Source: a virus
Length of the DNA stretch: 64,000 nucleotides
Direction: 5' to 3' (one strand)
IMG/VR virus record: IMGVR_UViG_3300021425_004041
Location: 1-64,000 of that record
The translations under genes and the position numbers were made by a program. The notes beneath the pieces were generated by a model. The model saw nothing but the letters and a program-made list of their open reading frames with translations, was not told the DNA's origin and did not search any database. Shown piece after piece: positions 41,324 through 64,000 of the stretch; position 1 is the stretch's first letter; every line of letters starts with the position of its first letter.

Positions 41324-41326
41324 ATA
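41319..41326 (+). promoter_or_regulatory. T4-type late promoter (exact TATAAATA)
   Basis: An exact TATAAATA that overlaps the stop of the third fibre gene and lies 28 nt before the ATG at 41354, with a CGGAG ribosome site between. I found no other convincing late or sigma70 promoter from here to the window end, so it probably feeds the whole downstream glycosyltransferase/radical SAM operon. Confidence 0.72.
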
Positions 41327-47551: not shown

Positions 47552-48282
47552 ATAAAGTCCCTAACATAATTGTTATAGGCTGTAGTTGGTCTAAATGGGG
47601 AGACAACGATTTTTTCAGCAATTCAGCCTTAAAAAAAGATAGTGTAAGTAGTTGGCCATTATTGCTGAGTGAGCAATATGATTGTAATGTTGAAAATTTC
47701 TCGCTATTAGGTAACAGTATAGCTTTCCAGTTTTATACTTTTTTAGAAATACTAAAAAATTACAAATTAGAAGAAATTGATTTAATAATTTTACAAATAA
47801 CATCTTTTTATAGGCAATCTTTTAAAATATCAAATAGTAAGTTTCAAAATACGAATATTAAAGAAGATTTAAAGACTATTACACCTAAATATAGAAGTTT
47901 AAAATGTGATAGAATTGAACATCATAATCCTTATGCTCCGGCAAAATTTTTTAATCTTGGTAATAAGTCATTTTTTAGAAGATTATGTACAATGAATGCA
48001 AAATATTCTATTAATGCTGCTATAGAATTTGAAATAGCATGGATTGATAAAATATTAATTTTATGTAAAGAAAAAAATATACCTTGTCTTCCTTGGCAAT
48101 ATCGCAATGGACATAATTTTTGGGCATATGAAAAAGCTGAGTTTATTCTTGAAAAAGAATTATCTAATAAATTATGGCAAAAGTTTATAGTAGATGAAGG
48201 AAAACATTTTAACACAAAAGGACAACAATATATATTAGATCATTTTTTGTTAGACAGAATACGTAAATATGTACAATTATGA
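47545..48282 (+). CDS. SGNH/GDSL-type hydrolase-like protein
   Basis: 245 residues. Block I is IIVIGCSWSKWG with the likely nucleophile S14. ENFSLLGNSIAFQ supplies the block with N, and the last ~30 residues have DEGKHFNTKGQQYI, where D217 and H221 resemble the Asp/His block V. SGNH enzymes remove or transfer acyl groups, often acetyl on sugars. The middle is divergent and long. It fits a glycan O-acylation or deacylation role beside the glycosyltransferases. It overlaps the first radical SAM gene by 14 nt. Confidence 0.65.
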   Translation: MLNKVPNIIVIGCSWSKWGDNDFFSNSALKKDSVSSWPLLLSEQYDCNVENFSLLGNSIAFQFYTFLEILKNYKLEEIDLIILQITSFYRQSFKISNSKFQNTNIKEDLKTITPKYRSLKCDRIEHHNPYAPAKFFNLGNKSFFRRLCTMNAKYSINAAIEFEIAWIDKILILCKEKNIPCLPWQYRNGHNFWAYEKAEFILEKELSNKLWQKFIVDEGKHFNTKGQQYILDHFLLDRIRKYVQL

Positions 48283-49342
48283 AGATATAAAAACAATTCA
48301 TTTAGAAATAACACAAAATTGTCAAGCTTCATGTCCTATGTGTGATAGGAATCAAAATGGCGGCGCATTAAATCCTCATATTAATTTAGATGAATTGACA
48401 ATAGATGATGTAAAAAATATATTCACAGTAGATTTTATTTCGCAATTATCTACTATGTATATGTGTGGTAATTTAGGCGATCCTATTGTTGCTCGTGATA
48501 CTTTAGAAGTTTTTGAATATTTTAGGAGTAATAATTCTAAAATGTGGTTGAGTATGAATACAAATGCAGGTGCTAGAGATGAGAATTGGTGGCAAGAACT
48601 TGCTAAAATTTATGGCAGGATGGGTGCTGTTATTTTTAGTGTAGATGGATTGCAAGATACAAATCATATTTATAGGCAAGGTGTAGTTTGGGAAAATGTA
48701 GAACGGTCTATGCGTAGTTTTACAGGTGCAGGAGGTAGAGGCCGCTGGGATTTTTTAATTTTTGATCATAACCAACATCAAGTAGAAGAAGCAGAACGGT
48801 TAAGTAAAGAATGGGGTTTTGAAAAATTTATTAAGAAAAAAACTGGACGGTTTGTAACAGCAAATGTTGAAGCAAAGGACACACATCAAGCAGTCAACAA
48901 AAAAGGTAAAAAGACTGCAGAGATAGCAAAACCTAAAGATGAATTTCAAAACATTGCAATTAAAAATTTACCAATATTATTAGAAAAATATGGCACTATG
49001 CATAATTATTATAATAAAGTACCAATTTTTTGTAAAGTAAAAAAAGATGGTAGTTTATTCATTACTGCAGAAGGCTTAGCATTACCTTGTTGTTGGACAG
49101 CCGGCCGTATGTATAAATGGTGGCATGAAGATCCTAAAATAGAACAAATATGGAGTTTTATTGATAACAAATCTAAAATTAATGCAAAGAATGGCTTACA
49201 TCAAGTATTTGCCAGTGGAATTTTTGAAACTATAGAACAAAGTTGGAAGAAAACTTCTTGTGATAATGGAAGATTAAAAGTTTGTGCAATGAAATGTGGA
49301 GTAGAATTTGATCCTTTTTCCGCTCAATTTATTAAAAGTTAA
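48269..49342 (+). CDS. Radical SAM enzyme with C-terminal SPASM-like cysteines (rSAM 1)
   Basis: 357 residues. The core cluster is C18-x3-C22-x2-C25 (NCQASCPMC), placed at the N-terminus as in SPASM-type enzymes. The usual GGE is replaced by CGNLGDP near residue 67. A FSVDGLQDTNHIYRQG segment follows near 130. The C-terminal part has FCKVKKDGSLFITAEG, LPCCW and KVCAMKCG, enough cysteines for an auxiliary iron-sulfur cluster. It lacks the N-terminal Cys domain of the later paralogues, so it is a separate subtype, closer to free-standing peptide- or sugar-modifying SPASM enzymes. Confidence 0.82.
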   Translation: MYNYEDIKTIHLEITQNCQASCPMCDRNQNGGALNPHINLDELTIDDVKNIFTVDFISQLSTMYMCGNLGDPIVARDTLEVFEYFRSNNSKMWLSMNTNAGARDENWWQELAKIYGRMGAVIFSVDGLQDTNHIYRQGVVWENVERSMRSFTGAGGRGRWDFLIFDHNQHQVEEAERLSKEWGFEKFIKKKTGRFVTANVEAKDTHQAVNKKGKKTAEIAKPKDEFQNIAIKNLPILLEKYGTMHNYYNKVPIFCKVKKDGSLFITAEGLALPCCWTAGRMYKWWHEDPKIEQIWSFIDNKSKINAKNGLHQVFASGIFETIEQSWKKTSCDNGRLKVCAMKCGVEFDPFSAQFIKS

Positions 49343-49357
49343 TATGGGAAAAAATAA

Positions 49358-50764
49358 ATGACAAATATATCTAAAACATTTTGTGTTTTACCTTGGATAC
49401 ATTTAAGCAGTCGGCCAGATGGTAAAATGCGAACTTGTTGCACGTCTAACGCAAGTTCAGTGCAAAGTTCTGACAGTAGTAAGAAAATTGGAGGAGGAGA
49501 AGTAGGAGTAGTAAAAAATGACGACGGTATACCTGCAAATTTTAATCATACTTCTTTAGAAAATGCATGGAATTCTTCTTATATGCGTAATGTTAGAAAA
49601 AAAATGCTTGCAGGAGAAAAACCTGACAGTTGTTTGAAATGTTATAAAGAAGAAGATGCAGGACATTTAAGTAAAAGAAATTGGGAAACTGAATACTGGA
49701 GTCATAGATATGATATTGGCAAGCTAATCAAGGATACTAATGCTGACGGAACTATACCTACAAAAATTAGATATATTGATTTACGTATGGGTTCAAAATG
49801 TCAACTTGCTTGTGTTATGTGCTCTCCGCATGATAGCTCTGGATGGATAACTGATTGGCAATCAATATATCCTAAAATAGAAAATAAAAAATTAAAAAAT
49901 ACAAGTCAATGGAAAAATAAAGGACAAGTTCACGGCGCAAGTTATAATTGGCATAAAAACAATCCTAAATTTTGGAAAGAATTAATGGAACAAGTTCCTA
50001 ATATGTATCAGTTGTATTTTGCAGGGGGCGAAAGTTTAATAATTGATGAGCATTATGAGCTATTAGAAGAATGTATTAAAAGAAATTATGCAAAAAACAT
50101 TGAATTAAGATATAATTCTAATGCAGTAGAATGGAGAGAAGATTTATTTGATTTGTGGAAGGAATTCAAAAGAGTTAGATTTCATTATAGCATAGACGCA
50201 CATGGAGAGCAAAATGATTACATACGATTTCCTAGTAATTGGACTCATCAAGAGAAAGTGTTTCATTTATTAGATAATTCTCCAGATCAAGTTGAAGTTA
50301 CTACAGCTACTACAATATTAGCTTTAAATATTGCTTATATTCCAGAATTTGTAAAATGGAAAGTTTCTCAAGGATTTAAAAAAATCAATCAATGGCCATT
50401 AGGTGCAGGAGGAATAAATATGCATTTTGCTTATTGGCCTCCTCAATTAAATGTTAAAGTTTTACCAAAAAATATTAAAAAACAAATAACTGAAAAATAT
50501 GAGAAAGAATTTTATCCGTGGATAGATGAAAATTGGAATAAATTTACTGGAGTAGCAGAAAACAATATTTCTTATGATGAATTTCAAAATGCACCATACG
50601 GTAAAAAAAGATTCAAAGGAATTATAAATTTTATGAATGCTGAAGATTGGAGTGAAAGGCTACCTGAAACAAAAGAATATTTAAATTTAGTTAACGAACA
50701 AAGAGGATGGACTAACAAATTTTTACAAGTATTTCCTATTTTTGAGGAGATAATATATGGGTAA
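49358..50764 (+). CDS. N-terminal-twitch radical SAM enzyme (rSAM 2)
   Basis: 468 residues, the longest of the paralogue set. The N-terminal cysteine domain has C9 in TFCVLPWIHLSS, C27-C28, and CLKCYKEED near 92-95. This order, auxiliary-cluster domain before the core, is that of the 'N-terminal twitch' radical SAM group. The core is C148-x3-C152-x2-C155 (CQLACVMC), then SPHDSSGW, GGES near 222 and YSIDAHGE...DYIRFP near 275. An insertion at ~30-55 is Ser/Gly-rich. After a 15-nt gap it is the only gene of the array not overlapping its upstream neighbour closely; AATATGGGAAAAA precedes the ATG. Confidence 0.85.
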   Translation: MTNISKTFCVLPWIHLSSRPDGKMRTCCTSNASSVQSSDSSKKIGGGEVGVVKNDDGIPANFNHTSLENAWNSSYMRNVRKKMLAGEKPDSCLKCYKEEDAGHLSKRNWETEYWSHRYDIGKLIKDTNADGTIPTKIRYIDLRMGSKCQLACVMCSPHDSSGWITDWQSIYPKIENKKLKNTSQWKNKGQVHGASYNWHKNNPKFWKELMEQVPNMYQLYFAGGESLIIDEHYELLEECIKRNYAKNIELRYNSNAVEWREDLFDLWKEFKRVRFHYSIDAHGEQNDYIRFPSNWTHQEKVFHLLDNSPDQVEVTTATTILALNIAYIPEFVKWKVSQGFKKINQWPLGAGGINMHFAYWPPQLNVKVLPKNIKKQITEKYEKEFYPWIDENWNKFTGVAENNISYDEFQNAPYGKKRFKGIINFMNAEDWSERLPETKEYLNLVNEQRGWTNKFLQVFPIFEEIIYG

Positions 50765-51935
50765 GGGTATTTGCTCTGCAGTTCATCATGGTTTATGTAT
50801 CACTGCTTACGGTGCAGTAAATCCTTGTTGTGCTACAACACAAGATTTTTCTAATTTAGAAAATACTTCAAATCTTGTTGATTATTTTTATAATGATGTA
50901 GAATTAGAAAAAGCTAGGAAAATAGAAATCGAAACCGAAGAATGGTTAGAAGCTTGTAAAGGTTGCGAAATAAAATCAAAATCTGGGCTAGTATCTCGAA
51001 AAGATAAATTTTCTAATTGGTACAGATTCGTAAATCCTAAATGGACAGCAGAAAACAAACACGAGATACTTCATATGGATATAAGTTTTGGAAATTCTTG
51101 TAACCAAAAATGTATTATGTGCAATAGCAACTTTTCAAGTCAATGGTTAGATGATGATTTAGAAATGAAAGAAACTGCTCCATATATAAGGAATTGGAAT
51201 GGACTTAAATTAAAAAATTGGAGTTTGACATATGAGTATTTAGATCAAATTGCACTATTAGTAACAGATAAAACGCAAAAAATAGAAATTAAGGGCGGGG
51301 AACCTTTATATGATAAGAGATTTGAATATTTTGTATTAAAAGTTTTAGAGGTTAATGAGAATGTTATGTTTAATGTTAATACAAATGGTACACATTTTAG
51401 TATGAAAAATATAGAAATGCTGAATAAAATTAAAAATATTAACATTGATATTAGTTTTGACGGTATAAACAAAATATATGAATGGATAAGGGGGACCGAA
51501 TGGAAAAAGTCAGAAGAAAATTTCCAAACATACCTACAACATTGTAAACATTCTTGCAACTTAAATTATACCACTAGTATGTATAATATAGATCATTTTG
51601 AAATTTTTTACAATTGGGCAGCAGATTTATCCGAAAAATATAAAAAAGCTGTTCCTTGTCTTTTTACCCAAGTAGTTATGACTCCATCTTTTCAACAAAT
51701 TATGTACGCTGATAAAAAAAGAATACATCAAGGCTTAGAGCAGATAGAGCGTATTAAATACGATCCTCGAGGAACGCAATCAAGTACTAATTTATTTAGA
51801 CCAAGATTAGAAATTATTCAAAAATATTTAGAAAATCAATTATCTAAAACTGCTGATATTAACATATTTGAAAAAGCACATAATCATTTTGTAAAAATTA
51901 GGGGCTGGGATATAAGAGATTATGTTAACTTGTAA
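50757..51935 (+). CDS. N-terminal-twitch radical SAM enzyme (rSAM 3)
   Basis: 392 residues. N-terminal cysteines are C6, C14, C24-C25 (NPCC) and CKGC near 68; the usual PW motif is replaced by HHGLCITAYG. The core is C115-x3-C119-x2-C122 (CNQKCIMC), then NSNFSSQW, KGGEP near 178 and ISFDGINKIYEWIRG near 240. The end is helical, with FEKAHNHFVKIRGWD. It overlaps its neighbours by 8 and 14 nt. Divergent N-terminus suggests a different partner or substrate from rSAM 2. Confidence 0.83.
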   Translation: MGKGICSAVHHGLCITAYGAVNPCCATTQDFSNLENTSNLVDYFYNDVELEKARKIEIETEEWLEACKGCEIKSKSGLVSRKDKFSNWYRFVNPKWTAENKHEILHMDISFGNSCNQKCIMCNSNFSSQWLDDDLEMKETAPYIRNWNGLKLKNWSLTYEYLDQIALLVTDKTQKIEIKGGEPLYDKRFEYFVLKVLEVNENVMFNVNTNGTHFSMKNIEMLNKIKNINIDISFDGINKIYEWIRGTEWKKSEENFQTYLQHCKHSCNLNYTTSMYNIDHFEIFYNWAADLSEKYKKAVPCLFTQVVMTPSFQQIMYADKKRIHQGLEQIERIKYDPRGTQSSTNLFRPRLEIIQKYLENQLSKTADINIFEKAHNHFVKIRGWDIRDYVNL

Positions 51936-53082
51936 GGTACCTTGGATCTCAATTACATTAAGCGGTAATGGAGACATTAAGCCGTGTTGTGTGTTTAAAG
52001 GAGGAGAGCATAGTATTCATAAAGGAGATACGCTTGACTCGACGTGGAAAGATTTTGATAAACTTCGTGAACAATTTATTAAAGGATATAAACCTGATAA
52101 ATGTAATCAATGTTGGAAAAGAGAAGAAACATTAGGATACAGTAGAAGAACATGGTATGATGATAAAATAAAAATTTGGCCAGAAACTTTTGATTTAAAT
52201 CCTACAATGGAATTACGACATATGGATTTAAATTTTGGAAATACTTGTAATTTAAAATGTCGTATGTGTGGTAGTTGGGGCAGTACTGCATGGTTTAAAG
52301 AAGAAGAAAAACTAATGTCTTGTAATCCTGCATTACAAAGAGGAGTATCAAATCTTAAACCTACAATAATACCTGCTGATTATTGGGCTGATAAAAAAAC
52401 GATGTTTCGATTTTTAGAACGAATAGATTTCAAGGGCGGAGAACCGATGATGCAAGAAGGTATGTATGATTTCCTTGAGTATCTTGTTTCATGGGGATAT
52501 GCATCTAACATAACTATTGCTTATACAACAAATGGTACTAAAACTCCTGAAAGGTTAAAAGAGCTTTGGCCAAAGTTTAAGAAAGTAAAATTAGTAATAA
52601 GTGTCGAAGCAACTGGTAAATTGTATGAATATATTAGAGGCGGTGACGTTCAATCTATAGATTCCTTAAAAGATAACATACATTGGTTTGATCAATTTAA
52701 TAATTTAAATGGTAGTTTTAACAGTGCTATACAAATTTATAATATATTTGCTTTACCAAAATTACTTGAATGGTTTAGAGATACTGTAAATGCTAGCAAA
52801 AAATGGCACACAGATCCAAATACTTTTAAATTTGATTGTTTAGTAGTTAATCCGCCGTATTTAGATATAAACATTATGCCAAACAGTTTAAAGAACAAAG
52901 CTATCTCAATAATAGAAGAAAAGAATTATAAAAGCCTTGGTGTTATAAAAAGTGCATTACAGAAAAAAAATACTTTTGATGATTATAACTGGAAATTGTT
53001 TATAGATTTTACCAAACAATTAGATAAAATGCGGCATACAGATATTAAAGAAGTTGTTCCTGAGTTACAGGAGTATTTTTAA
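51922..53082 (+). CDS. N-terminal-twitch radical SAM enzyme (rSAM 4)
   Basis: 386 residues. C4 lies in CKVPWISITLSGNG, followed by C22-C23 and CNQCWKREET near 60-63. The core is C109-x3-C113-x2-C116 (CNLKCRMC), then GSWGSTAW, KGGEP near 170 and ISVEATGKLYEYIRGG near 228 (the Asp of the SIDA motif is Glu here). The C-terminus, FTKQLDKMR...VPELQEYF, is shared with rSAM 9. The TAATG junction couples it to rSAM 5. Confidence 0.85.
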   Translation: MLTCKVPWISITLSGNGDIKPCCVFKGGEHSIHKGDTLDSTWKDFDKLREQFIKGYKPDKCNQCWKREETLGYSRRTWYDDKIKIWPETFDLNPTMELRHMDLNFGNTCNLKCRMCGSWGSTAWFKEEEKLMSCNPALQRGVSNLKPTIIPADYWADKKTMFRFLERIDFKGGEPMMQEGMYDFLEYLVSWGYASNITIAYTTNGTKTPERLKELWPKFKKVKLVISVEATGKLYEYIRGGDVQSIDSLKDNIHWFDQFNNLNGSFNSAIQIYNIFALPKLLEWFRDTVNASKKWHTDPNTFKFDCLVVNPPYLDINIMPNSLKNKAISIIEEKNYKSLGVIKSALQKKNTFDDYNWKLFIDFTKQLDKMRHTDIKEVVPELQEYF

Positions 53083-54296
53083 TGTTTACTTTGAAAAATA
53101 GCTGTGTTTATATGAATAATTTTCCTTTCATTAATAATAAAGGACAATTAAAGCTTTGTTGTAAAAATAATACGTATACAATGGAAGGAAATATCAAAAC
53201 TCATTCGTTAAAAGAAATGTATTTTAGTTCTTTATACAATGAGTTAAGGGATAAAATGTTAGCAGAAAAGGTTATAGAAGGATGTGATATTTGTTATTCA
53301 CAAGAAGCTCGTAACGAAGATAGTTTTAGAATTAGAGCTTTGACAAATATTACTAGAGAAGATAGAGATAAGATAGTTCCCTTTCCAAAAGTAAAGATAC
53401 AAAATTTAGATCTAAGGATAGGTTCTACTTGTAATTTAATGTGTTCAATGTGTCATCCTACAGATAGTAGTAAATGGTATGCAAATTATGAAACATTTGC
53501 AAAAGAAGTTCATAATAAAAGTGACAATCATGTGAACATTATTAAATCAACAAATATTCCAACTGATTTAAATTGGGCAACATATGACGAAAGTTGGGAT
53601 AATATTTTTAAAAGTATTGATGATGAATTAAATTTTGTTTACATTGCGGGAGGAGAGCCTTTTTATATTAAAAAATTTCCTGAGTATTTAACACATTTAA
53701 TTGAAAAATCTCCTAATGCAATAATTGAAATAAACACTAATTCAACTGCTGCTATTCCAGAAAAGTATTTAGATAAATTAAAAGGAAAGTTACAATTACG
53801 TATTAGTATAGATGGTTTTAGAAAAACAGAAGAATATCAACGTGCAGGTACAAATTGGAATGAGAAAATTAAGATAATTGATTCATATTCAAAATATTTT
53901 GAAATTAAATGTTTTGATATTACTCTAACAAGTTTTACTATTAGATCTTTGCCTTCTCTTGTAAGTTTTTTAGAAAATAGATATCCAAAAGTTCGTTTTT
54001 TATTTAGACCTGTTGTAAATAGGCAAGGTCAAGATATTAGAAGTGTACCTAAAAAATTTTTAAGTCATGTAAAAACATTTTGTAAGGAAAAACAAGAAAT
54101 AATTAATGAAAATAAGGAAATGCGCTGGCATTATAACAATATTAATCAAATTTTAAATTTTTTAAATCAAGATTATATTGATGAAAAAGAAACATTACAA
54201 AAACTTGTAAAATATTGGGATGATTTAACAGGAATACATTTTAAATCTTTTGATACAGAATTTGGAAATTGGATAAATGAAAACCATAGCAGTTGA
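53082..54296 (+). CDS. N-terminal-twitch radical SAM enzyme (rSAM 5)
   Basis: 404 residues. C8 is in NSCVYMNNFPFINNKGQ, with C26-C27 and CDICYSQEA near 66-69. The core is C117-x3-C121-x2-C124 (CNLMCSMC), then HPTDSSKW, AGGEP near 189, ISIDGFRKTEEYQRAG near 245 (YIR becomes YQR) and a long helical end. It overlaps rSAM 6 by 20 nt. The divergent N-terminal motif and YQR change set it apart from the FC-LPWIH group (rSAM 2, 7, 9). Confidence 0.83.
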   Translation: MFTLKNSCVYMNNFPFINNKGQLKLCCKNNTYTMEGNIKTHSLKEMYFSSLYNELRDKMLAEKVIEGCDICYSQEARNEDSFRIRALTNITREDRDKIVPFPKVKIQNLDLRIGSTCNLMCSMCHPTDSSKWYANYETFAKEVHNKSDNHVNIIKSTNIPTDLNWATYDESWDNIFKSIDDELNFVYIAGGEPFYIKKFPEYLTHLIEKSPNAIIEINTNSTAAIPEKYLDKLKGKLQLRISIDGFRKTEEYQRAGTNWNEKIKIIDSYSKYFEIKCFDITLTSFTIRSLPSLVSFLENRYPKVRFLFRPVVNRQGQDIRSVPKKFLSHVKTFCKEKQEIINENKEMRWHYNNINQILNFLNQDYIDEKETLQKLVKYWDDLTGIHFKSFDTEFGNWINENHSS

Positions 54297-55023
54297 GCAT
54301 AGTAGTCCTAATCAAAGTAAAATTTTTAAAATAGAATGGAATTTAGGAAAACGTTGTAATTTTAATTGTAGCTATTGTGATGAATATACTCATGATAATT
54401 ATAGTAAGCATATACCTTTTGATATAGCAAAAAAAACTATAGATAAAATTATGGCTAAAACGCAAAATAAAAAAATTAAAATAAATTTAACAGGCGGAGA
54501 ACCTACGGTAAATCCTGATATTGAAGAAATAATTTCTTATATGTATGATAATAATATAGATATAGGAATAACAACAAATGGAAGTAGGAAGCTAAATTTT
54601 TATCAAAAAATCCTGCCAAAATTAGCAAGCTTAATATTTAGTTATCATATGGAATATCATGCAAGAGAAGTCCTTCCGGAAAATATTGTTGAAATATATA
54701 ATCTTGCTCAACAACAAAAAAAATATATTCACGTGCATGTTCATATGATGATGCTACCTACAAAATTTGATGAAGCAATTAATGCGTTTGATTTTTTTAA
54801 ACAGAATTCAGTTCCTGTTGTCATGCGCCGAATTAGACCAGCTTACAAAAAGGATAATGATGCAATTTATGAAAATAAAAAACTTATAGCTGGTAATATT
54901 GCAAGGCCTTTTTATGACGGTGTTGTTACATTGAAAATGACCCCAAATGGGCCAGATTATTCAGGTGCTGATGATTATTATAGTAATGATGAGATAACAT
55001 ATTTAGAAAATAACAATGTATAA
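54277..55023 (+). CDS. Core-only radical SAM protein (rSAM 6, core half of a split enzyme)
   Basis: 248 residues. The cluster is C27-x3-C31-x2-C34 (CNFNCSYC), followed by LTGGEPTVNPDIEEI near 70 and ITTNGSRKL. There is no N-terminal Cys domain and no C-terminal auxiliary cysteines, and the protein stops just where a SPASM/twitch domain would begin. The next ORF overlaps by 8 nt and encodes such a domain. It is therefore probably half of a two-gene enzyme. It lacks the C-x4-S-[STN]-x-W signature of the paralogues, so it is a different subfamily. Confidence 0.83.
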   Translation: MKTIAVEHSSPNQSKIFKIEWNLGKRCNFNCSYCDEYTHDNYSKHIPFDIAKKTIDKIMAKTQNKKIKINLTGGEPTVNPDIEEIISYMYDNNIDIGITTNGSRKLNFYQKILPKLASLIFSYHMEYHAREVLPENIVEIYNLAQQQKKYIHVHVHMMMLPTKFDEAINAFDFFKQNSVPVVMRRIRPAYKKDNDAIYENKKLIAGNIARPFYDGVVTLKMTPNGPDYSGADDYYSNDEITYLENNNV

Positions 55024-55405
55024 AATACTTAAAAATCAAAATAAAGCAGGTAGTTTTACGAATGTCGCTACTATAAGAAAAGATGGAAATGATATTTTTT
55101 ATGTAGAAGAAAATGTAAATGATATCACTGTAAGGCGAGAAAATCAGTATAAAGGTTGGTTGTGCTGGTCAGGTATCGAAAGTTTAATGATAGATGCAGA
55201 CGGAAATGTTTTTACTGCAACTTGTAGGACAAAAAAGTTAGGCAACATATATACCGAGTTTACTCTACCCGATGAACCCATTATATGTACAAAAAATTGG
55301 TGTGCTTGTGCAGCCGATTTAAATACAAGTAAAGCAATTGATATAGAATCAGCAAAATTATTAAGGAGGGCTAATAATGCATATTCTCGAACGTTGGGAA
55401 GCTAG
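55016..55405 (+). CDS. Stand-alone auxiliary-cluster (SPASM/twitch-like) domain partner of rSAM 6
   Basis: 129 residues. The order is LCWSGIESLMIDADGNVFTATC, then KLGNIY and ICTKNWCACAADL: five or six cysteines in the spacing of a SPASM/twitch auxiliary [4Fe-4S] domain (C..G...I...G....C...LGN......C...C.C..D). No CxxxCxxC core. It lies in the +1 frame relative to the upstream core and starts within that gene's last codons. It would bind the upstream core in trans or be a fixed gene split. A sequencing frameshift cannot be excluded, but both ORFs have clean ends. Confidence 0.7.
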   Translation: MYKILKNQNKAGSFTNVATIRKDGNDIFYVEENVNDITVRRENQYKGWLCWSGIESLMIDADGNVFTATCRTKKLGNIYTEFTLPDEPIICTKNWCACAADLNTSKAIDIESAKLLRRANNAYSRTLGS

Positions 55406-55982: not shown

Positions 55983-55983
55983 A

Positions 55984-57273
55984 ATGGATTATAAAGAAAA
56001 AGCATTGTCTAGTAGTACATTTTGTCTATTGCCTTTTATACATATGGCAACAAAAACTGACGGGGACTTAAAGTTATGTTGTAGAAGTTGGCCAATTGGT
56101 AATATATCTAAACAAAGTATAAAAAGTTTATGGAATGGTAATACATACAAAAGGGTAAGAATGCAAATGTTAAACAGTCAACGCCCTCCAGAATGTGATG
56201 CATGTTGGCGTCATGAAGACATAGGTGTCACAAGTATGCGACAAAGATACAATAAATCAAGATCAAAGCAATACCTAAATACCTTAGATAATTTGTCAGA
56301 TAATTATACAATGCCTTTACAAATTCCTATAATAGAAGCCAAATTAAGTAACTTTTGTAATTTAAAATGTAGAATGTGTCATCCATTAGACAGTACAAGT
56401 TGGAGTAAGGATTGGAAAGCAATTGAGCATTTGATGAAGGATGCAAATGAAAGCACATATAAAAAAGTTATAGAATATGATTTAACAGAAAAACCTTATA
56501 TAAATGCTTATGAAAATAATAATGAATTTTGGAGTGAATTTAAAGAAATTGCTCCGTTTTTAGATAGGATAGAATTTGCAGGGGGAGAACCACTTATTGA
56601 TCCCGTGCATTATAAAATTTTACATATACTTAAAGATTATGGAGATAATATAGAAATTAAGTATTCTACAAATTTAACTAGATTGAATTACAAGAAAGAT
56701 GATGTAGAAGTGCTTTGGAATTACTTTAAATGTATTGATTTAAATATTAGTATTGACGGTATATATGATGTTTATAATTACATAAGACAGTTAGGTGATT
56801 ATAATATTGTAAAAGAAAATATAAAAAAAATATCTAATCATAAAAAATTGCGTTATATAGGCGCAGCTATTACTTTACAAATTTATAATAGTTTTCAAAT
56901 ACCTGCCATGTTTGACGAATTTGTAGAGGAATGTAATATTGACATACATACTCATAGAGTAAATTATCCTAAATTTTTAGATGCAAGGGTTATACCACAA
57001 GATATACGAAATAGTATTATAAAAGATCTAGAAAAATATATACATACTGTATCACAAAAAACCCATACAAATTGGACAAAAGAAAGGAAAAATAAGGCTA
57101 TATCTCATTTAGAGGACGCAATAGCTATGTTTAAAGGAGGAGATATGTCAGCGCAAATAAACAATTTTATAGAATTTAGCGATATATTAGATAAAAAACA
57201 AGAGGTTAAAAAGACGTGGAGAGAATTGCTGCCAATATTAGTAAAAGGTATTAATAAAAATGATCACAGCTAA
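55984..57273 (+). CDS. N-terminal-twitch radical SAM enzyme (rSAM 7)
   Basis: 429 residues. C14 lies in TFCLLPFIHMATKTDG, with C32-C33 and CDACWRHED near 78-81. The core is C125-x3-C129-x2-C132 (CNLKCRMC), then HPLDSTSW, AGGEP near 198 and ISIDGIYDVYNYIRQ near 255. It begins one base after the nitroreductase stop. Residues ~330-400 are a helical, charged extension. It is very similar in plan to rSAM 2 and 9, so recent duplication is likely. Confidence 0.85.
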   Translation: MDYKEKALSSSTFCLLPFIHMATKTDGDLKLCCRSWPIGNISKQSIKSLWNGNTYKRVRMQMLNSQRPPECDACWRHEDIGVTSMRQRYNKSRSKQYLNTLDNLSDNYTMPLQIPIIEAKLSNFCNLKCRMCHPLDSTSWSKDWKAIEHLMKDANESTYKKVIEYDLTEKPYINAYENNNEFWSEFKEIAPFLDRIEFAGGEPLIDPVHYKILHILKDYGDNIEIKYSTNLTRLNYKKDDVEVLWNYFKCIDLNISIDGIYDVYNYIRQLGDYNIVKENIKKISNHKKLRYIGAAITLQIYNSFQIPAMFDEFVEECNIDIHTHRVNYPKFLDARVIPQDIRNSIIKDLEKYIHTVSQKTHTNWTKERKNKAISHLEDAIAMFKGGDMSAQINNFIEFSDILDKKQEVKKTWRELLPILVKGINKNDHS

Positions 57274-58624
57274 ACAACAAAGAGAAATTTTGCAATTTGG
57301 TTCTGTTGCTGTAACCTATGTTGCAGAAAAAGAACATAGATACAGTGATAAAGTTTTTGCCAGACTTTGTAAAAATGTGGCAGAATATGATGTTATTCAT
57401 CTTATAAAAAATGGAATTGCAGCGTCTATAGAAAACAGTTTAGTAGATAGTCTAAAATTTGCAAAAGCATATGACAAAAAATTTCTTTTATATTGCCAAG
57501 TAGGAAATTTAATTATTTGGGAAGAGATTGCAGAGCATTTAAAAGAAATTTTATTATTAAATCCTACGGTAAAATTTATAGGACATATTTTACAGCATAA
57601 TAATAAAAGTTTTTATATTCATCCTCAATTTTTTTTAATAGATGTGAAATGGGCTATTAGTAACAAATGCGTTACCATTTGTAATGAGCATTCGGATATT
57701 AAGTGGGAAGGCCCGTTATTAAGCAGGAGTAAAGAAAATTTTCATGATAATTACACTCCTATTTGGGTGCAGGCTACAGGTAAATATAAAAATTTTGTTG
57801 GAAGAGGTAAAGGAGCAAATATTATTGATATATTGGCACGATCTGCTGCAGATTTTATGCCTTGGCAAGTGAATGTTAGAAAAAATAAAAAATTTTTGTA
57901 TCCTACAGTAAAACAAGAATTAATTAAACAAAAAAATGAGATTTTTGAGGAAATGTTGTTTACTAGACCGTATGTTGCTAATACAGAAAATATTACACCT
58001 AAAGCAATGTTATCAAACATAAATCCAAAAATAAAGTTTAATATATCTTTTTCTCCTGCTAGTGGAATATTTTGGTTTTTATTACCTTATTACTTAAAGG
58101 TCACGTCGTTTGTTTATGATTCGTCGCCATATGCACTACGTATGGTTGAAAAAATTAGAATGGATTGGAATGGTAGGAATTATAAAGAGTTTGTAATTAA
58201 AAATTTTTTAAACGAAAGTCCTAATATAGGTTTGTATGCCGCTCATACAGGACCATTTTTAGATCAAGCAAATGATCTGATTGATTCTTTAGGGGAGGAT
58301 TTTGTTAGATGGTGGCATAAAAATAATAAAGGTCCTTTACGACAAGTTAATTTATGTAATTTTTCTAATTTTCAAAGATTATTAGTAGATGATCATAAAA
58401 ATTTAAATGTTTTTTTTAATTTTTCTAATATTTTTCATTTTAGACCAGTAGCTGTTTTTAATAGTTTACAAGAAAGGGTTAATTTGCTGAAGGAGCTAAG
58501 AAATTTTATGTTAGAAAATTATAAATTTGTACATTTTCTTGGTACATCTCCTATTGGAAAAGACAAGATAGATGGAGATATAATTGATGGAAAATTAGTT
58601 TGCCCCCTAAAATTATTCGAATAA
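57260..58624 (+). CDS. Unknown protein with methyltransferase-like C-terminal half
   Basis: A 454-residue protein I do not recognise. The first ~180 residues have alternating strands and helices (VAVTYVAEKEHRYSDKVF, FLLYCQVGNLIIWEEI) and could be a Rossmann-type domain. About residues 265-320 contain FNISFSPASGIFWFLLPYYL, FVYDSSPYALRMVEKI and DWNGRNYKEF, which recalls the 'YD-S-A' and 'WNG-Y' segments of a methyltransferase-like family seen in marine phages and bacteria. No clear GxGxG was found. It overlaps rSAM 7 by 14 nt. Modification of a sugar or peptide is the likely setting; function is not shown. Confidence 0.5.
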   Translation: MITAKQQREILQFGSVAVTYVAEKEHRYSDKVFARLCKNVAEYDVIHLIKNGIAASIENSLVDSLKFAKAYDKKFLLYCQVGNLIIWEEIAEHLKEILLLNPTVKFIGHILQHNNKSFYIHPQFFLIDVKWAISNKCVTICNEHSDIKWEGPLLSRSKENFHDNYTPIWVQATGKYKNFVGRGKGANIIDILARSAADFMPWQVNVRKNKKFLYPTVKQELIKQKNEIFEEMLFTRPYVANTENITPKAMLSNINPKIKFNISFSPASGIFWFLLPYYLKVTSFVYDSSPYALRMVEKIRMDWNGRNYKEFVIKNFLNESPNIGLYAAHTGPFLDQANDLIDSLGEDFVRWWHKNNKGPLRQVNLCNFSNFQRLLVDDHKNLNVFFNFSNIFHFRPVAVFNSLQERVNLLKELRNFMLENYKFVHFLGTSPIGKDKIDGDIIDGKLVCPLKLFE

Positions 58625-58633
58625 ATAAAATAT

Positions 58634-59353
58634 ATGGATAAAAATATAATAGATTTATTTGAAAAGAACAAATCAATTGGTCATTATTCTAAAGGTGTGC
58701 CTGCCTTGCCAAAAGAAATGATTCCTTGGCAAGGCAATTATGATCAAGCTGCAATGTGGATAATAAAAAATAGTTATATACCTACTTTACTTTTAGATTT
58801 AGAAATTCCATTTAATGAAATGCTTGCAGAATCTGTAACCAATGACGAATATTACGTAAAACATAGAGGTAATAGATCACCTGGGTGGTATAGCATGGCT
58901 ATACATGGAACTGCAGTAAACCATACCCAACCTGCAGAATATTATTACAAAAAAAATAAACCTAAATATGATTGGACTGATTTAGCAGAAAAATGTCCTA
59001 TAACAAAAGATTGGTTAAAAAGTTTAGAATTTGAATCTTTTAGTAGGGTTAGATTTATGAAATTATCTCCAGGAGGATGGATAGAACCACATCAAGATAC
59101 ACATATTGCAGGAATTCAGGCATGGAATGTTGCTTTGAATCATCCCCCAGGACATGAATTTGTAATGGATAATTATGGGTTGGTTCCTTGGCAAGAAGGG
59201 CAAGTTAGAGGAATAGATATTAGTTCTTTGCACAGTGTAAGAAATGTAGGAAAAAAGGATAGAATACATATAATTATTCATGGTAGTATTGGAGATAAAT
59301 TTAAAAAGATAATTTGTAAAAGTTATTTAGATCTGTATGAAAAAACCTATTGA
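58634..59353 (+). CDS. 2-oxoglutarate/Fe(II) oxygenase, aspartyl/asparaginyl beta-hydroxylase type
   Basis: 239 residues. The iron ligands are visible in EPHQDTH (H153, D155) and SLHSVRN (H200), with R210 of DRIHIIIHG as the likely 2OG-binding arginine. WNVALNHPPGHEF lies between, as in the Asp/Asn hydroxylase-like family. A tryptophan/tyrosine-rich segment precedes it. The enzyme would hydroxylate a peptide or small-molecule side chain. It sits after the methyltransferase-like gene and before the class B radical SAM gene, overlapping the latter by 17 nt. Confidence 0.8.
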   Translation: MDKNIIDLFEKNKSIGHYSKGVPALPKEMIPWQGNYDQAAMWIIKNSYIPTLLLDLEIPFNEMLAESVTNDEYYVKHRGNRSPGWYSMAIHGTAVNHTQPAEYYYKKNKPKYDWTDLAEKCPITKDWLKSLEFESFSRVRFMKLSPGGWIEPHQDTHIAGIQAWNVALNHPPGHEFVMDNYGLVPWQEGQVRGIDISSLHSVRNVGKKDRIHIIIHGSIGDKFKKIICKSYLDLYEKTY

Positions 59354-60824
59354 TATTGTGTTGTTAAGCACACCAGTAATGGAAACAAGAGTGCCTGCGC
59401 CTGCAATTTATTATCTAAAAGGCGCATTAAATCCGCATGGATTTAAATCTCGGTGTTTTGACTTAGTAAGAGATAGTGAAGAAAAATTTGGTGTAGAAGA
59501 CAATAAGAAAATAAACAGTTTTTTGTTAGCTAATTGGCATGCTGGAATGCTTGTTGATGAAGATGATAGAAGTATTTATAATAAAATTTTTCAATATTAT
59601 AGAGAATATGTAAAAGAAAAAATATTATGTTTAAATCCTAAATATATCGGTGTGAGCGTTTTCAGTCAAAATAGTCAAAAATCAAGTCACATATTATGTA
59701 AAGCTTTGAAAGAATTTTTACCGCATACTAAAATTATTTTAGGAGGAACTGGGTTAGGTATTTCTATGGGCGGAAAAAAAGAGTTTGGATCTAATTTAAT
59801 CGATCAAGGCTTAGCTGATTATTTTATTGACGGAGAAGGCGAAATTGCTTTAGTTGAACTGTTAAAAGGTAATTTAAACTATCCGGGAATAAATTCTACA
59901 GTCTATAAACAAATTGATAACATAAATGATTTGCCTTTTCCTGATTATAGTGATTACATGCAAGATTACGGTAATATTAATAAAATTACTTTGACAGGAT
60001 CTAGAGGGTGCGTAAGGCGTTGTAGTTTTTGTGATATAGGAGCATTTTGGAAAAAATTTAGATATAGATCTGGTGAAAATATTGCTGAAGAAATTATTAG
60101 AAATAAAGAATTGTATAAATCCCGAACGCACTTTTTTTCAGACAGTCTTATAAATGGAAGCATGAAAGCATTTAGAGATTTTTGTAATGTTATGGCAGAT
60201 TATCATAAAAAGTATCCAAGAGCCAAGGACCGAATTAGATGGGGAGGACAGTTCATAATAAGGAGTGAAATGCAGAGTCCTGCAGAAGATTATGAATTAA
60301 TGCGTAAAGCAGGTATGTCTTGGGCTAGCATAGGAATAGAGAGTGCAAGTGAAAAAGTTAGAGATCATATGGATAAACAATTTAGTAATAAAGATATGTA
60401 TTTTAGTATTGATAGATTAATAGAGAATGACATACCTGTTACTGCTATGTTTATAGTAGGCTATCCTACAGAGACTGAGGAAGAATTTAAAGAAAATATA
60501 AGATGGCTACAGTATTATGCAGATAGAAATAGCAGTAAAGTAAAACAGGAATGGAAAGGGCAAATTAAAGATATAAATTTAGGACAAACCTTAGGTGTCT
60601 TATCGGATAGTCCGTTAGGAAACATGGACATTTTTGAGGGAAAAGATACGTGGGTGTCAAAAGTTGTACCTGGTTTGGATTTTGAAGAACGGGTAAATAG
60701 ACGTAAATTGTTATCAAAAATTGCTAAAGACTTAGGCTACACAGTAAGGTGGGACGAAAAACAATTACATTTTTTAAATAAAAAATTAGAAAGATGGCAG
60801 AGTAAAGGACGTCCTATAACATGA
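59337..60824 (+). CDS. Class B-type radical SAM protein with N-terminal B12-binding-like domain (rSAM 8)
   Basis: 495 residues. The N-terminal ~190 residues have the layout of a cobalamin-binding domain (IDIVLLSTPVMETRVPAPAI at the start, IGVSVFSQNSQKSS, IILGGTG, DYFIDGEGEIALVELL) but the DxHxxG cobalt-ligand motif is not seen. The core cluster is C225-x3-C229-x2-C232 (CVRRCSFC), followed by HFFSDSLINGS, GIESASEKVRDHM and FIVGYPTETEEEF, as in the B12-dependent/methylthiotransferase-like class. It might act as a methylase or ring-forming enzyme. Unrelated in design to the N-terminal-twitch set. ATGA overlap with rSAM 9. Confidence 0.82.
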   Translation: MKKPIDIVLLSTPVMETRVPAPAIYYLKGALNPHGFKSRCFDLVRDSEEKFGVEDNKKINSFLLANWHAGMLVDEDDRSIYNKIFQYYREYVKEKILCLNPKYIGVSVFSQNSQKSSHILCKALKEFLPHTKIILGGTGLGISMGGKKEFGSNLIDQGLADYFIDGEGEIALVELLKGNLNYPGINSTVYKQIDNINDLPFPDYSDYMQDYGNINKITLTGSRGCVRRCSFCDIGAFWKKFRYRSGENIAEEIIRNKELYKSRTHFFSDSLINGSMKAFRDFCNVMADYHKKYPRAKDRIRWGGQFIIRSEMQSPAEDYELMRKAGMSWASIGIESASEKVRDHMDKQFSNKDMYFSIDRLIENDIPVTAMFIVGYPTETEEEFKENIRWLQYYADRNSSKVKQEWKGQIKDINLGQTLGVLSDSPLGNMDIFEGKDTWVSKVVPGLDFEERVNRRKLLSKIAKDLGYTVRWDEKQLHFLNKKLERWQSKGRPIT

Positions 60825-61984
60825 ATACTAAAACGTTTTGTATATTGCCGTGGATGCATCTTGCAACTAATGCTAGTGGGAATTTACGAGTATGCTGTAA
60901 TTCGCTTCCTGGAAAAAATTTTGTAACAAAAGATAACGGTCAACCTTATAAAATTTATAAAGATAACTTAATTGAAGCCTGGAATAGTGATGTTTACACT
61001 AAAATAAGGGAAGAAATGTTAAATGGTATAAGACCTGAAATGTGTACCCGTTGTTTTAGAGAAGAAGATACTGGAATAAAAAGTTCTAGGCAGGCCTGGA
61101 ATGAAAAATGGATGGAAAATAAAATTTACAGTAAGAATCCTGATTTTGAAATTAAATATGTAGATCTAAGATTAGGCAATTTATGTAATTTAAAATGTAG
61201 GATGTGTAATCCTTATGCAAGTAATCAATGGGTAAAGGAATGGAATTTAGTAGAAGAAGCTCTGTCGCCAAGTGAATATGATAGGTTAAGTAATATGAAT
61301 TGGCCTTCTGCAGAAAAAACTTGGATAAATTTATTTGCGATAGCAGAAACAGTTGATGAAATATATCTTACAGGAGGCGAACCTACTATTATTAAAGAAC
61401 AGCATAGATTATTAGATTATTTTATTGATAATAATATTTCTCATAAAATCAAATTAAAATATAATACAAATTTAACAAATATTCCTGCAAAGCTTATAGA
61501 AAAATGGAAAAAATTTAAAACAGTTCAATTAAATTGTAGTATTGATGCAGTAGGTGATTTAGATAGATACATACGTTTTCCTAGTAATTGGAATCAAATA
61601 CAAGAGAATTTTAATCAGGTTAGACTGTTAAAAAATGTAAATATAGAAATACATTGTACAGTGCAAATGTATAACATTTTGCGATTAGATGAATTTTTAG
61701 ATTGGGCAGGACCTTATAATAATAAAATTTATTTAAACATATTGAATCATCCTGAATATCTTAATATAAGGGTTTTACCTGTAGAGTTAAAATTTATTGT
61801 AGAAAAAAAATTAAAAAAGTATTTACATTTTCCTAAAGTTAAAGGGGTTATTGATTATATGTTAGCTGAAGACTGGGTTGACCAATACAAAAATTTTGTT
61901 GATTATACGTGTAAAATTGATAAATCAAGAGAGCAAAATTTTGCAAACTTTGTACCTGAATTTCATTTAGAGAAATATGTATAA
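60821..61984 (+). CDS. N-terminal-twitch radical SAM enzyme (rSAM 9)
   Basis: 387 residues. C7 lies in TFCILPWMHLATNASG, with C25-C26 and CTRCFREED near 73-76. The core is C122-x3-C126-x2-C129 (CNLKCRMC), then NPYASNQW, TGGEP near 184 and CSIDAVGDLDRYIRFP near 242. The end, IDKSREQNFANFVPEFHLEKY, matches that of rSAM 4. Same layout as rSAM 2 and 7. It overlaps neighbours by 4 and 8 nt. Confidence 0.86.
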   Translation: MNTKTFCILPWMHLATNASGNLRVCCNSLPGKNFVTKDNGQPYKIYKDNLIEAWNSDVYTKIREEMLNGIRPEMCTRCFREEDTGIKSSRQAWNEKWMENKIYSKNPDFEIKYVDLRLGNLCNLKCRMCNPYASNQWVKEWNLVEEALSPSEYDRLSNMNWPSAEKTWINLFAIAETVDEIYLTGGEPTIIKEQHRLLDYFIDNNISHKIKLKYNTNLTNIPAKLIEKWKKFKTVQLNCSIDAVGDLDRYIRFPSNWNQIQENFNQVRLLKNVNIEIHCTVQMYNILRLDEFLDWAGPYNNKIYLNILNHPEYLNIRVLPVELKFIVEKKLKKYLHFPKVKGVIDYMLAEDWVDQYKNFVDYTCKIDKSREQNFANFVPEFHLEKYV

Positions 61985-63191
61985 TAAAAAAACATATTGT
62001 CCTATGCCTTTTGTGACAATGACTGTGAATCCAGGAAATTACATTTCACGATGTATGATGAGTGTAAAATCAATGGGAGAAATACAATCAAAAACTTTGC
62101 AAAATTTAGCGTTTGAAACGCTTAGATCTAATATGCTAAATGGAGTTTGGGATAAAGAAGGTTGTAAAGTTTGTTATAGTAGAGAAAATGCAAATTTAGA
62201 TAGTCAAAGGTTAAAATGGTTAAAAAATGAAAAAATATATTTAGATGAAGAAGGTATATATGAAAAAAATATTAATTTAAGCAGAAATAAAATTTATCAT
62301 TTATATTTAAATTTTAGTAATATTTGTAATTTTAAATGTAGAATGTGCGGACCGCATTTTAGTAATGCATGGTTAAGTGACCATAGGAAATTGTTAGAGA
62401 AAGGAATATATAAAGAAATTTATATTCCACCTAAAAGTCAAGTAGATATAGATAAATTTTTATTAGAATTTGGTAATGATTTACAAAATTTACGGCAAAT
62501 TTGGATCACAGGAGGAGAACCGTTTATTGATAATAAATTATTTGATTTCTTTGAAAAGCTAGAAAGTTATGCAGATTTAAAAAATATAAAGGTAAGTGTA
62601 AACACAAATGGTAGCAAGTTAGATGTTAATAAATTGAAAATTTTAAGGAATTTAAAACAAATTGTAATTAATTTTAGTGTAGACGCTGTAGGTGATTTGT
62701 ATAAGTACATGCGTGGTTATAATTATGATTTTAAAGAAATTGATAAAAAGATAAACAATTGTTTAAAATTACAGAATGAGCAAAATAATTTAAATATTGC
62801 TGTAAATGGAACTTATCAATTATATAATATTTTGAATGTAGAAGATTTTTGGCTATGGGGTAAAAAAGTTGCTAATTCTAAAAAAGGAAATTGGATAGAA
62901 TATAGAACACTTTCTGGTCCAAATTTTCTTGCTGCTCGTCATGCACCTTTAACAGTAAAAAATAAAGCAGTAAAAATTTTGCAAAAACTAATAGATGACG
63001 ATAAAGATTTTATTCATAATCATTATTTGCAACAGGCTATTTGTGAATGTAAATTAAATGCTGTACCAGAGTATATAAAAAAATTTGTTAATTTTAATAA
63101 CGAACTTGATAATATAAGGAATGAAAAGTTAAATGATTATTGCGAGTTTTTATTAAAAGGCTGGCGTGAAGAAGGTAATTTAGATGAATAG
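61977..63191 (+). CDS. N-terminal-twitch radical SAM enzyme (rSAM 10), with altered N-terminal cysteines
   Basis: 404 residues. C8 lies in TYCPMPFVTMTVNPG, but the usual CC pair is a single C26 (RCMM); CKVCYSRENA follows near 60-63. The core is C117-x3-C121-x2-C124 (CNFKCRMC), then GPHFSNAW, TGGEP near 177 and FSVDAVGDLYKYMRG near 237. The missing cysteine means the N-terminal cluster may be coordinated differently. It overlaps the next gene by 8 nt. Confidence 0.84.
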   Translation: MYNKKTYCPMPFVTMTVNPGNYISRCMMSVKSMGEIQSKTLQNLAFETLRSNMLNGVWDKEGCKVCYSRENANLDSQRLKWLKNEKIYLDEEGIYEKNINLSRNKIYHLYLNFSNICNFKCRMCGPHFSNAWLSDHRKLLEKGIYKEIYIPPKSQVDIDKFLLEFGNDLQNLRQIWITGGEPFIDNKLFDFFEKLESYADLKNIKVSVNTNGSKLDVNKLKILRNLKQIVINFSVDAVGDLYKYMRGYNYDFKEIDKKINNCLKLQNEQNNLNIAVNGTYQLYNILNVEDFWLWGKKVANSKKGNWIEYRTLSGPNFLAARHAPLTVKNKAVKILQKLIDDDKDFIHNHYLQQAICECKLNAVPEYIKKFVNFNNELDNIRNEKLNDYCEFLLKGWREEGNLDE

Positions 63192-64000
63192 GTATTGCGA
63201 AGCAGGCAAAAATCATGTATGGATACGGTCTATGGGTGTAGGACCAATGGCTCAATTGTGTTGTAGTTTAGACAGGAGTGATATACATAGATATCCATTA
63301 GATAAGGTATCTGATTTTTTAACATTGTTAGATTCTGCAGAATGGAAAAAAAAGTATGATGTGCTTGAAAAAGAAAGATTAGACGAATGTAGTAATTGCT
63401 ATAAAGCTGATCAACAAAAAAAAGATAGTCAAAGAAGAAAAATAAATAGTTTTTGTAAAAATGGCAAGTTTTTTTTAAAAATTGATTTTAGTAATAAATG
63501 TAATTTAAAATGTTTAATGTGTAGCAGTGCTAGAAGCACATCTTGGATTAAAGATGAATACCAATTAAAAAAAGATTTAGATTGGTGGGATTGGGTGCCT
63601 ATAAAGTATTCTACATTAGGAGACGATTGGTGGCATAATTTACCAAACTTGTTTTGGAATAGTGTAAGCACAGTTGAAATTTCAGGAGGCGAACCATTAT
63701 ATCAAGAAGATGCAATTGCTTTTTTAGAGTTTTTTGCTCATTCTTATCCAAATATCACAATAAGAATAATAACAAATGCAACTTTGTTAAATGACAATGT
63801 TAAAAAAATTTTTACAAAAATAAAAACATTAGATGTTTTAACAAGTATAGATGCATGGGAAGATGAAATTTATAGATATAGTAGAGGCGGAGTACATTCG
63901 TTAGATAAAATAAAAGAAAATCTTAAAATAATTAATTCTATTGTTACAAGGCATGCTGTTGTAGATACCTTACATCCAGTAAACTACGATCAATCTCTTA
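63184..64000 (+). CDS. N-terminal-twitch radical SAM enzyme (rSAM 11), cut by window end
   Basis: The frame opens at an ATG at 63184 inside the last codons of rSAM 10 and runs to the window end (272 codons seen). N-terminal cysteines: C5, C26-C27 and CSNC near 63-66. The core is C106-x3-C110-x2-C113 (CNLKCLMC), then SSARSTSW, SGGEP near 166 and TSIDAWEDEIYRYSRGG near 225. It shows the array continues past 64 kb. The C-terminus is not visible. Confidence 0.84.
   Translation, partial: MNRYCEAGKNHVWIRSMGVGPMAQLCCSLDRSDIHRYPLDKVSDFLTLLDSAEWKKKYDVLEKERLDECSNCYKADQQKKDSQRRKINSFCKNGKFFLKIDFSNKCNLKCLMCSSARSTSWIKDEYQLKKDLDWWDWVPIKYSTLGDDWWHNLPNLFWNSVSTVEISGGEPLYQEDAIAFLEFFAHSYPNITIRIITNATLLNDNVKKIFTKIKTLDVLTSIDAWEDEIYRYSRGGVHSLDKIKENLKIINSIVTRHAVVDTLHPVNYDQSL

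Follow-up and report, generated by a model that had tools for sequence, protein, structure and literature searches.

Large sets of radical SAM (rSAM) genes have been known in phages since 2010, when the Campylobacter phages CP220 and CPt10 were described as encoding 11 and 12 rSAM proteins, respectively (PMC2853527); our own re-count for CP220 also gave 11. A T4-like marine genome of 183 kb, TARA_ERS488813_N000010, was reported in 2017 to possess 12 rSAM genes (PMC5332604), and in 2020 rSAM cassettes were described within the host-recognition cluster of pelagimyophages (PMC7029224). These publications contradict two statements in an earlier note on the DNA analyzed here, namely that rSAM genes in phages mostly occur singly and that such an array was not known to have been described. 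What is new relative to the previous phage rSAM sets is the conserved core, the late-operon logic, and the breadth.

The window, the whole stretch of 64,000 nucleotides that was analyzed, belongs to a virus record of 86,115 bp from an uncultured marine jumbo phage. A PF04055 search of the virus record identified 14 rSAM open reading frames, all of which pass the cut-off and contain the CxxxCxxC motif. Eleven are inside the window on a single strand, as had been claimed, and the further three start at 65120, 66685, and 73664. The weakest is the protein encoded at 48269, which scored 31 bits in the record search and was marginal by hmmscan (29.0 against the cut-off of 29.5). Eight of the proteins are of the N-terminal-twitch type, three are B12-type-like, and three are composed of a core plus SPASM, one of these being divided between two genes. 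A search of the record for an Fe-S assembly gene (PF01521) found none.

The rSAM paralogs are divergent (21–34% identity), which would fit an assembly chimera or a pile-up of duplicated nonfunctional genes; that explanation is, however, scarcely credible. The catalytic cysteines are intact across all of the paralogs, and the N_Twi proteins are under purifying selection (median dN/dS 0.05, with dS near saturation). An independent contig, L246, spans the phage-island junction at 91–98% identity, and in the relative G002 (gp6 66% identical) an island of different content, including a protein that resembles an NDP-sugar dehydrogenase by its N-terminus, lies between the same two fiber genes, the flanks being identical in kind. 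These two independent assemblies rule out a chimeric assembly. All 18 records that have this core and were tested also carry the gp6 of the source phage, and together with the G002 flanks this identifies a genuine phage system. The two doubts that the earlier note had raised, absence from all relatives and a chimera of phage and host DNA, are therefore both removed.

The core genes are conserved, and the tailoring genes are hypervariable. The recurrent order in the jumbo lineage is adhesin, hypothetical protein, GT8, GT8, hypothetical protein, a tandem glycosyltransferase and class I methyltransferase fusion (GT-GT-MT), a 72-aa helical protein, rSAM, and N_Twi_rSAM, and this order is preserved in the loci examined. 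All features given here are on the + strand. The conserved 117-aa core protein (42326..42679), possibly a chaperone, has homologs in 40 viral loci between the adhesin and GT8 genes. The first GT8-like glycosyltransferase (42672..43493) matches glycogenin weakly (E=0.001 for a profile of 34 homologs, in which D101 is invariant and D99 almost so); the second (43490..44308) is homologous to the first (E=6e-8) and adjoins it in core loci. They are followed by a 183-aa protein with no assigned function (44305..44856), which is conserved in position and weakly in sequence.

The GT-GT-MT protein (44853..47336) is 48–95% identical across relatives. Its description as a fusion of glycosyltransferases and a methyltransferase is borne out by the predicted fold, for which both tandem glycosyltransferases and class I methyltransferases are matches, but not by Pfam, where it has no match; its profile also found no match among PDB sequences. 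A Foldseek search with the AlphaFold2 (AF2) model, whose overall confidence is low (pLDDT 71, pTM 0.41), returned K4 chondroitin polymerase (E=7e-6), the S-glycosyltransferase SunS, and several SAM methyltransferases, all with low TM-scores. The Escherichia coli K4 enzyme, the best fold match, likewise has two glycosyltransferase domains per chain but differs in lacking a methyltransferase domain, with 9% sequence identity and a low TM-score. None of the glycosyltransferase, SGNH, and adhesin genes has a significant Pfam match.

The gene for the 72-aa helical protein (47333..47551), which the earlier account had passed over, is directly 3' of the GT-MT gene in 75 of the 78 copies examined, and the protein has 512 relatives in IMG/VR. 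Its sequence is evenly conserved, and the AF2 model (pLDDT 93) is well folded and helical, with no fold match in the PDB. An acyl or peptidyl carrier protein (ACP/PCP) was considered for its invariant serine at a helix start and was rejected, no ACP being among the PDB fold matches. An SGNH-like protein (47545..48282) is a variable insert with homologs in eight loci; the SGNH label is that of the earlier note, and the SGNH proteins have no family match. The core rSAM with a C-terminal cysteine cluster (48269..49342) has homologs in 130 viral loci and is 49–95% identical among relatives, with a dN/dS of 0.08 against L246. The N_Twi_rSAM in the core position (49358..50764; NF033640, 413.8 bits) is up to 99% identical in relatives.

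The previously described systems share parts of this arrangement. CP220 has an rSAM cluster near baseplate genes, two nucleotide-diphospho-sugar-transferase-like genes, and an amidinotransferase, but in CP220/CPt10 neither the N_Twi query nor GT-GT-MT nor the 72-aa core protein had a detectable match, the rSAM genes are partly scattered in the genome, and no adhesin-led late operon is described. The TARA_ERS488813_N000010 genome, going by its published description, is comparable in being marine and T4-like and in having 12 rSAM genes, which its authors list under Fe-S metabolism and for which they give no gene order, core, or substrate hypothesis. The pelagimyophage cluster is a hypervariable island beside tail fibers with GT8, rSAM, 2OG oxygenase, aminotransferase, and desaturase genes; the island of pelagiphage Mosig encodes aminotransferases, a carbamoyltransferase, and MoaA-like rSAMs, and its aminotransferase and desaturase are 48% and 36% identical, respectively, to those of the source phage. 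The pelagimyophage isolates nevertheless lack a match to GT-GT-MT or the 72-aa core protein, Mosig has few rSAMs, and their lineage is Kyanoviridae. Bdellovibrionota chromosomes contain NF033640 arrays with up to nine N_Twi genes per locus; these are cellular, with mixed gene strands and mostly without the GT-MT/72-aa core.

The explanation that we favor, tentatively and with slightly less than an even chance of being correct, is a late, phage-encoded pathway for glycan assembly and tailoring in an uncultured jumbo myovirus lineage, probably decorating the tail fibers. The earlier suggestion of what looks like one dedicated pathway is supported, and glycan tailoring is the best reading of it. 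The two GT8-like transferases, GT-GT-MT, the 72-aa putative helper protein, one rSAM, and one N_Twi_rSAM would start and extend a sugar chain and then methyl-modify or cap it. The hypervariable set of N_Twi and B12-type rSAMs, Asp-hydroxylase-like 2OG oxygenases, sulfotransferases, aminotransferase, and SGNH-like proteins may oxidize, epimerize, methylate, or sulfate the chain into phage-specific forms, and on the tail fiber or adhesin the chain would alter receptor binding or recognition. A more specific proposal, which we consider fairly unlikely, is that this widespread lineage makes its own "phage O-antigen", a methyl-modified chain on the tail adhesin that is built by the core and diversified by a hypervariable set of 5–23 rSAM and other oxidative enzymes, with the result that its phages would vary fiber chemistry in the way that bacteria vary their surface. 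If glycan tailoring is correct, phages devote upward of 30 kb of their late genes to making and varying their own glycan, using a radical chemistry that is not known from virions. The locus would then offer much new rSAM chemistry and would give a concrete function to phage rSAM sets unexplained since 2010, with the testable rule of a conserved core, late expression, and the fiber as acceptor.

The operon structure bears on where such a chain would be attached. A single operon of 35 genes (41354–75223; largest gap 33 bp), which takes in all 14 rSAM genes, is headed by the gene for an adhesin/fiber-like protein (41354..42313), a homolog of which is encoded ahead of the GT8/rSAM operon in many relatives. 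The protein has no match in Pfam or PHROG; its gene comes after tail-fiber genes, one of which (35582–37681) encodes a Collar domain (PF07484), and this position suggests that the product is a virion adhesin. The element TATAAATA (41319..41326) is 28 bp 5' of the adhesin-like gene and is a putative late promoter of the phage T4 type. The motif occurs seven times in the window, where 21 occurrences would be expected by chance, and three of the 10 copies in the 86-kb record precede a start codon by 10–45 bp (P=4e-4). It is kept upstream of the homologous adhesin-like gene in three other loci (L250, L251, and L314), and in G002 one copy precedes the next gene by 22 bp. Scans for generic sigma-70 promoters and for terminators gave no clear excess over shuffled sequences. 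A convergent operon, also behind the late promoter motif, begins with a gene for a protein with the Mtd_N (tropism determinant) domain (PF18454, 32.7 bits; cut-off 26.3) and continues with desaturase-like, aminotransferase-like, 2OG, and sulfotransferase-like genes. Both here and in G002 a hypervariable island lies between adhesin-like and Mtd_N-type genes, as in a host recognition cluster. The motifs suggest that the island and the convergent operon are expressed late. The chain is most likely to be on the tail fiber or adhesin because of the adhesin-like gene at the operon head, the preceding tail-fiber genes, and the late promoter. Divergence of the adhesin and GT8 is weakly correlated (rho 0.32–0.35), and co-divergence was consequently rejected as proof of the acceptor.

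The main rival, which we consider fairly unlikely, is remodeling of the host surface, in which the enzymes build or alter the O-chain of the host LPS or the host capsule, with superinfection exclusion as one possible purpose. Such a role was proposed for GT8 and LPS genes in the host recognition cluster of pelagimyophages (PMC7029224), the comparable Mosig island lies between tail fibers and VrlC, and the bacterial relatives sit among sugar-modifying genes. However, the late promoter motif and an operon shared with a fiber gene argue against it, since exclusion would need early expression, and nothing in the operon was recognized as a flippase, ligase, or polymer export gene.

The tailoring genes, most of whose products are less than 50% identical to any relative found, include several N_Twi_rSAMs. 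With the core protein at 49358, seven meet the curated NF033640 cut-off of 170 bits, the others being at 50757..51935 (175.9 bits), 51922..53082 (286.6), 53082..54296 (197.5), 55984..57273 (330), 60821..61984 (390.1), and 61977..63191 (231.7). An N_Twi-like protein (63184..64000), truncated by the window end and 351 aa long in the record (to 64239), has the N_Twi cysteine pattern and scores 143.6 bits, below the cut-off. The twitch cysteines C7, C25, C75, and C78, N-terminal to the core, are invariant in 8 of 8 aligned N_Twi proteins. The twitch weakly matches BtrN, an aminocyclitol dehydrogenase, and bacterial N_Twi neighborhoods contain glycosyltransferases, carbamoyltransferases, DegT aminotransferases, and dTDP-sugar enzymes. 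The top PDB score of the N_Twi profile is to SkfB, a peptide maturase, so a peptide substrate is possible.

It is distinctly unlikely, in our judgment, that the rSAM and 2OG enzymes directly modify a phage protein, with glycosylation as a second layer and with residues epimerized, cross-linked, hydroxylated, or C-methylated as in proteusin or ranthipeptide maturation. RiPP-maturase-like profiles fit this idea (SkfB for N_Twi; TIGR03975, 100 bits, for 73664), but among the matches listed none of the 14 rSAMs meets a maturase equivalog cut-off. PF05118-type hydroxylases act on protein Asp/Asn, and the 2OG-Fe(II) oxygenase of this family in the operon (58634..59353; 48 bits, cut-off 22.6), the identification of which was confirmed, would be consistent with such hydroxylation. 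Polytheonamide biosynthesis uses a B12-type rSAM, a 2OG enzyme, and a methyltransferase, a set resembling the one here; the B12-binding-type rSAM (59337..60824; PF04055, 75 bits) is PhpK/BchE-like without an equivalog (TIGR04479, 98 bits; cut-off 600). Against protein modification, no leader-core precursor was seen: the sole conserved short gene seen encodes the 72-aa protein, which was rejected as a RiPP precursor for its even conservation and predicted fold. For the peptide product that the earlier note had allowed, a RiPP precursor is not evident, although one may be encoded elsewhere. A diffusible small molecule or antimicrobial produced during infection is very unlikely: the array size and enzyme variety are like those of natural-product clusters, but thiolation domains, NRPS/PKS, transporters, and resistance genes were not recognized, the 72-aa fold is unlike carrier proteins, and the late operon includes a fiber gene.

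Among the remaining genes of the proposed glycan-tailoring island, the nitroreductase-like label (55377..55982) has behind it a PF00881 match (E=0.003) that falls below the cut-off, and the protein at 57260..58624, labeled methyltransferase-like, has no family match. A single-sequence search with the latter gave no relatives; they surfaced by other routes, and its pairing with the 58634 gene is kept in the viral loci L095 and L106 as well as in the Bdellovibrionota loci L203 and L205. Several more 2OG oxygenases are encoded in the record beyond the window. The separate auxiliary-cluster open reading frame is real: it is the SPASM half (55016..55405) of a split enzyme whose rSAM core half is at 54277..55023, and both halves have homology to the 65120 protein, which is intact (E=2e-21 for the core half; E=1e-10 for the SPASM half, to the C-terminal half). 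Two viral loci (L095 and L106) and two Bdellovibrionota loci (L203 and L229) show the same two-gene split, so it is not a sequencing frameshift.

The radical SAM (rSAM) genes lie in a run of 35 plus-strand genes (41354-75223; genes are named by start coordinate) in which no gap exceeds 33 bp and the majority of genes overlap. All eleven rSAM ORFs claimed by the earlier note were found in the window, and three more past its end bring the array to 14 genes (48.3-75.2 kb of the record), every one with intact CxxxCxxC cysteines. The additional plus-strand genes, positioned by adding 62999 to the coordinates of L009, the part of the record reaching past the window, are 65120, encoding an rSAM core with a SPASM domain, and 66685 and 73664, both B12-type-like. 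Seven of the rSAM proteins pass the cut-off of NCBIfam model NF033640 (N-terminal twitch rSAM, N_Twi); 63184 is an eighth of the same build, yet scores below it. Within the window, an rSAM core and a SPASM domain are encoded by two separate, overlapping genes (54277-55405), a split kept in further phages and in Bdellovibrionota. Judged by sequence, 54277 and 55016 are the core half and the SPASM half of one enzyme type, whose intact homolog is 65120.

The premise of the earlier note that phage rSAM genes are usually single, with no description of such an array known, is not supported by the literature. Campylobacter phages CP220 and CPt10 encode eleven and twelve rSAM proteins, termed "highly unusual" in 2010 (PMC2853527; our re-count for CP220 is also 11), a 2017 paper lists 12 rSAM genes in a T4-like marine genome (PMC5332604), and the host recognition clusters of two pelagimyophages are set apart by rSAM cassettes (PMC7029224). 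Pelagiphage Mosig has a comparable island, with an aminotransferase and a desaturase 48% and 36% identical to those found here. No description of the core or the order of its genes, or of a late fiber-led operon like this one, was found in the literature searched, which included few subscription journals and no preprints.

The word TATAAATA, which we take to be the late promoter word known from T4, is rarer than chance in the window (7 copies vs 21 expected), and one copy lies 28 bp upstream of 41354, the adhesin/fiber-like gene heading the operon. Another lies 33 bp upstream of the gene that heads a convergent minus-strand operon; this gene (78265-79848; L009:15266-16849) encodes a protein with an Mtd_N domain (PF18454, above cut-off), as in phage tropism determinants. 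The whole record has ten copies, three of them 10-45 bp ahead of a start codon (P = 4e-4). The word precedes the 41354 homolog in the relatives L250, L251 and L314; in the related phage record G002 it precedes the gene after that homolog and also an Mtd_N-type gene. From this placement at 41354, at the Mtd_N-type gene and in relatives, both tailoring operons look late and fiber-led. The minus-strand operon also holds desaturase-, aminotransferase-, 2OG- and sulfotransferase-like genes.

The 86,115-bp IMG/VR virus record, whose bases 1-64000 make up the window, probably represents part of the genome of an uncultured jumbo myovirus, because its gp6-like baseplate protein (15144-18569) shares 33-37% identity with those of jumbo myoviruses including Phosso, SCTP-2, PA5oct and Atu_ph07, and roughly 50% or higher identity with proteins of many uncultured contigs, one of 364 kb. 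Between the baseplate and fiber genes, a single ORF of 5,452 codons (18585-34943) encodes a giant protein.

A 72-aa ORF (47333-47551) sits between the gene for a tandem glycosyltransferase-methyltransferase fusion (GT-GT-MT, 44853-47336) and an SGNH-like gene. It belongs to a conserved family of more than 500 viral relatives (512 by IMG/VR scan). We examined the best 80 of the 512 loci, which include several near-identical contigs and so represent fewer independent cases; the 72-aa gene is directly 3' of the GT-MT gene in 75 of 78 copies. Among loci found through this protein, the recurring order is adhesin-like, 117 aa, GT8-like glycosyltransferase (GT8), GT8, ~180 aa, (GT-GT-)MT, 72 aa, rSAM (48269 type) and N_Twi (49358 type), with variable inserts, and gp6 of this lineage was present in all 18 records tested. 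The 72-aa protein is predicted to be compact and helical (pLDDT 93), with no fold match and no significant Pfam or PHROG match. Cultured phages are without the core: neither the 72-aa protein nor GT-GT-MT had a match among 50,697 records.

Several lines of evidence bear on function. The GT8 profile, in which D101 is invariant and D99 almost invariant, weakly matches glycogenin (E=0.001). The predicted GT-GT-MT fold resembles K4 chondroitin polymerase (two domains; E=7e-6) as well as SunS and class I methyltransferases, at low model confidence and TM-scores. The substrate of the N_Twi proteins may be a sugar or a peptide, since the twitch weakly matches BtrN and the core best matches SkfB. Their bacterial neighbors include glycosyltransferases, carbamoyltransferases, DegT aminotransferases, epimerases and dTDP-sugar enzymes, each a small share of the 109 neighbors scanned. 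From the GT8, GT-GT-MT, 72-aa and N_Twi matches and these bacterial neighborhoods we infer that the island would encode a late pathway for building and tailoring a glycan, with a fiber as its most likely target; operon position and timing are what point from glycan to virion.

The earlier note had raised conservation of the array in relatives: core order and, in G002, the flanks do recur, whereas the tailoring genes mostly differ. Core identities span 48-95% (GT-MT), 62-92% (72 aa), 49-95% (rSAM) and 30-98% (GT8), and most tailoring enzymes are below 50% identical or without a relative among the loci compared. G002, with gp6 66% identical, has the same flanks around a different tailoring gene set. 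Although gp6 differs to that extent, its 65120-type rSAM is 94% identical to the present one, which suggests recent exchange of this gene between phages. Core dN/dS against the viral contig L246 is 0.07-0.35, and the N_Twi proteins have a median of 0.05 (83 pairs; dS high).

N_Twi matches number 3 to 22 per record in 49 viral records picked for an N_Twi or rSAM match, and nine large records hold 5 to 23 rSAM genes; the maximum, 23 matches in one virus record, is in G056 (L128; 242,646 bp). Among 31 records with gp6 relatives, 8 have rSAM genes, and most others are short fragments that may stop before the island. Bins assigned to Gammaproteobacteria MED685, Rickettsiales MED657 and Pelagibacter (L171, L193, L219) also hold gp6 of the present phage; the contigs with N_Twi genes in these bins are probably viral, grouped with bacterial DNA during binning. 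Bdellovibrionota and unclassified bacterial MAGs (L191, L192, L229, L236) include contigs with 5-9 N_Twi rSAM genes within ~20 kb.
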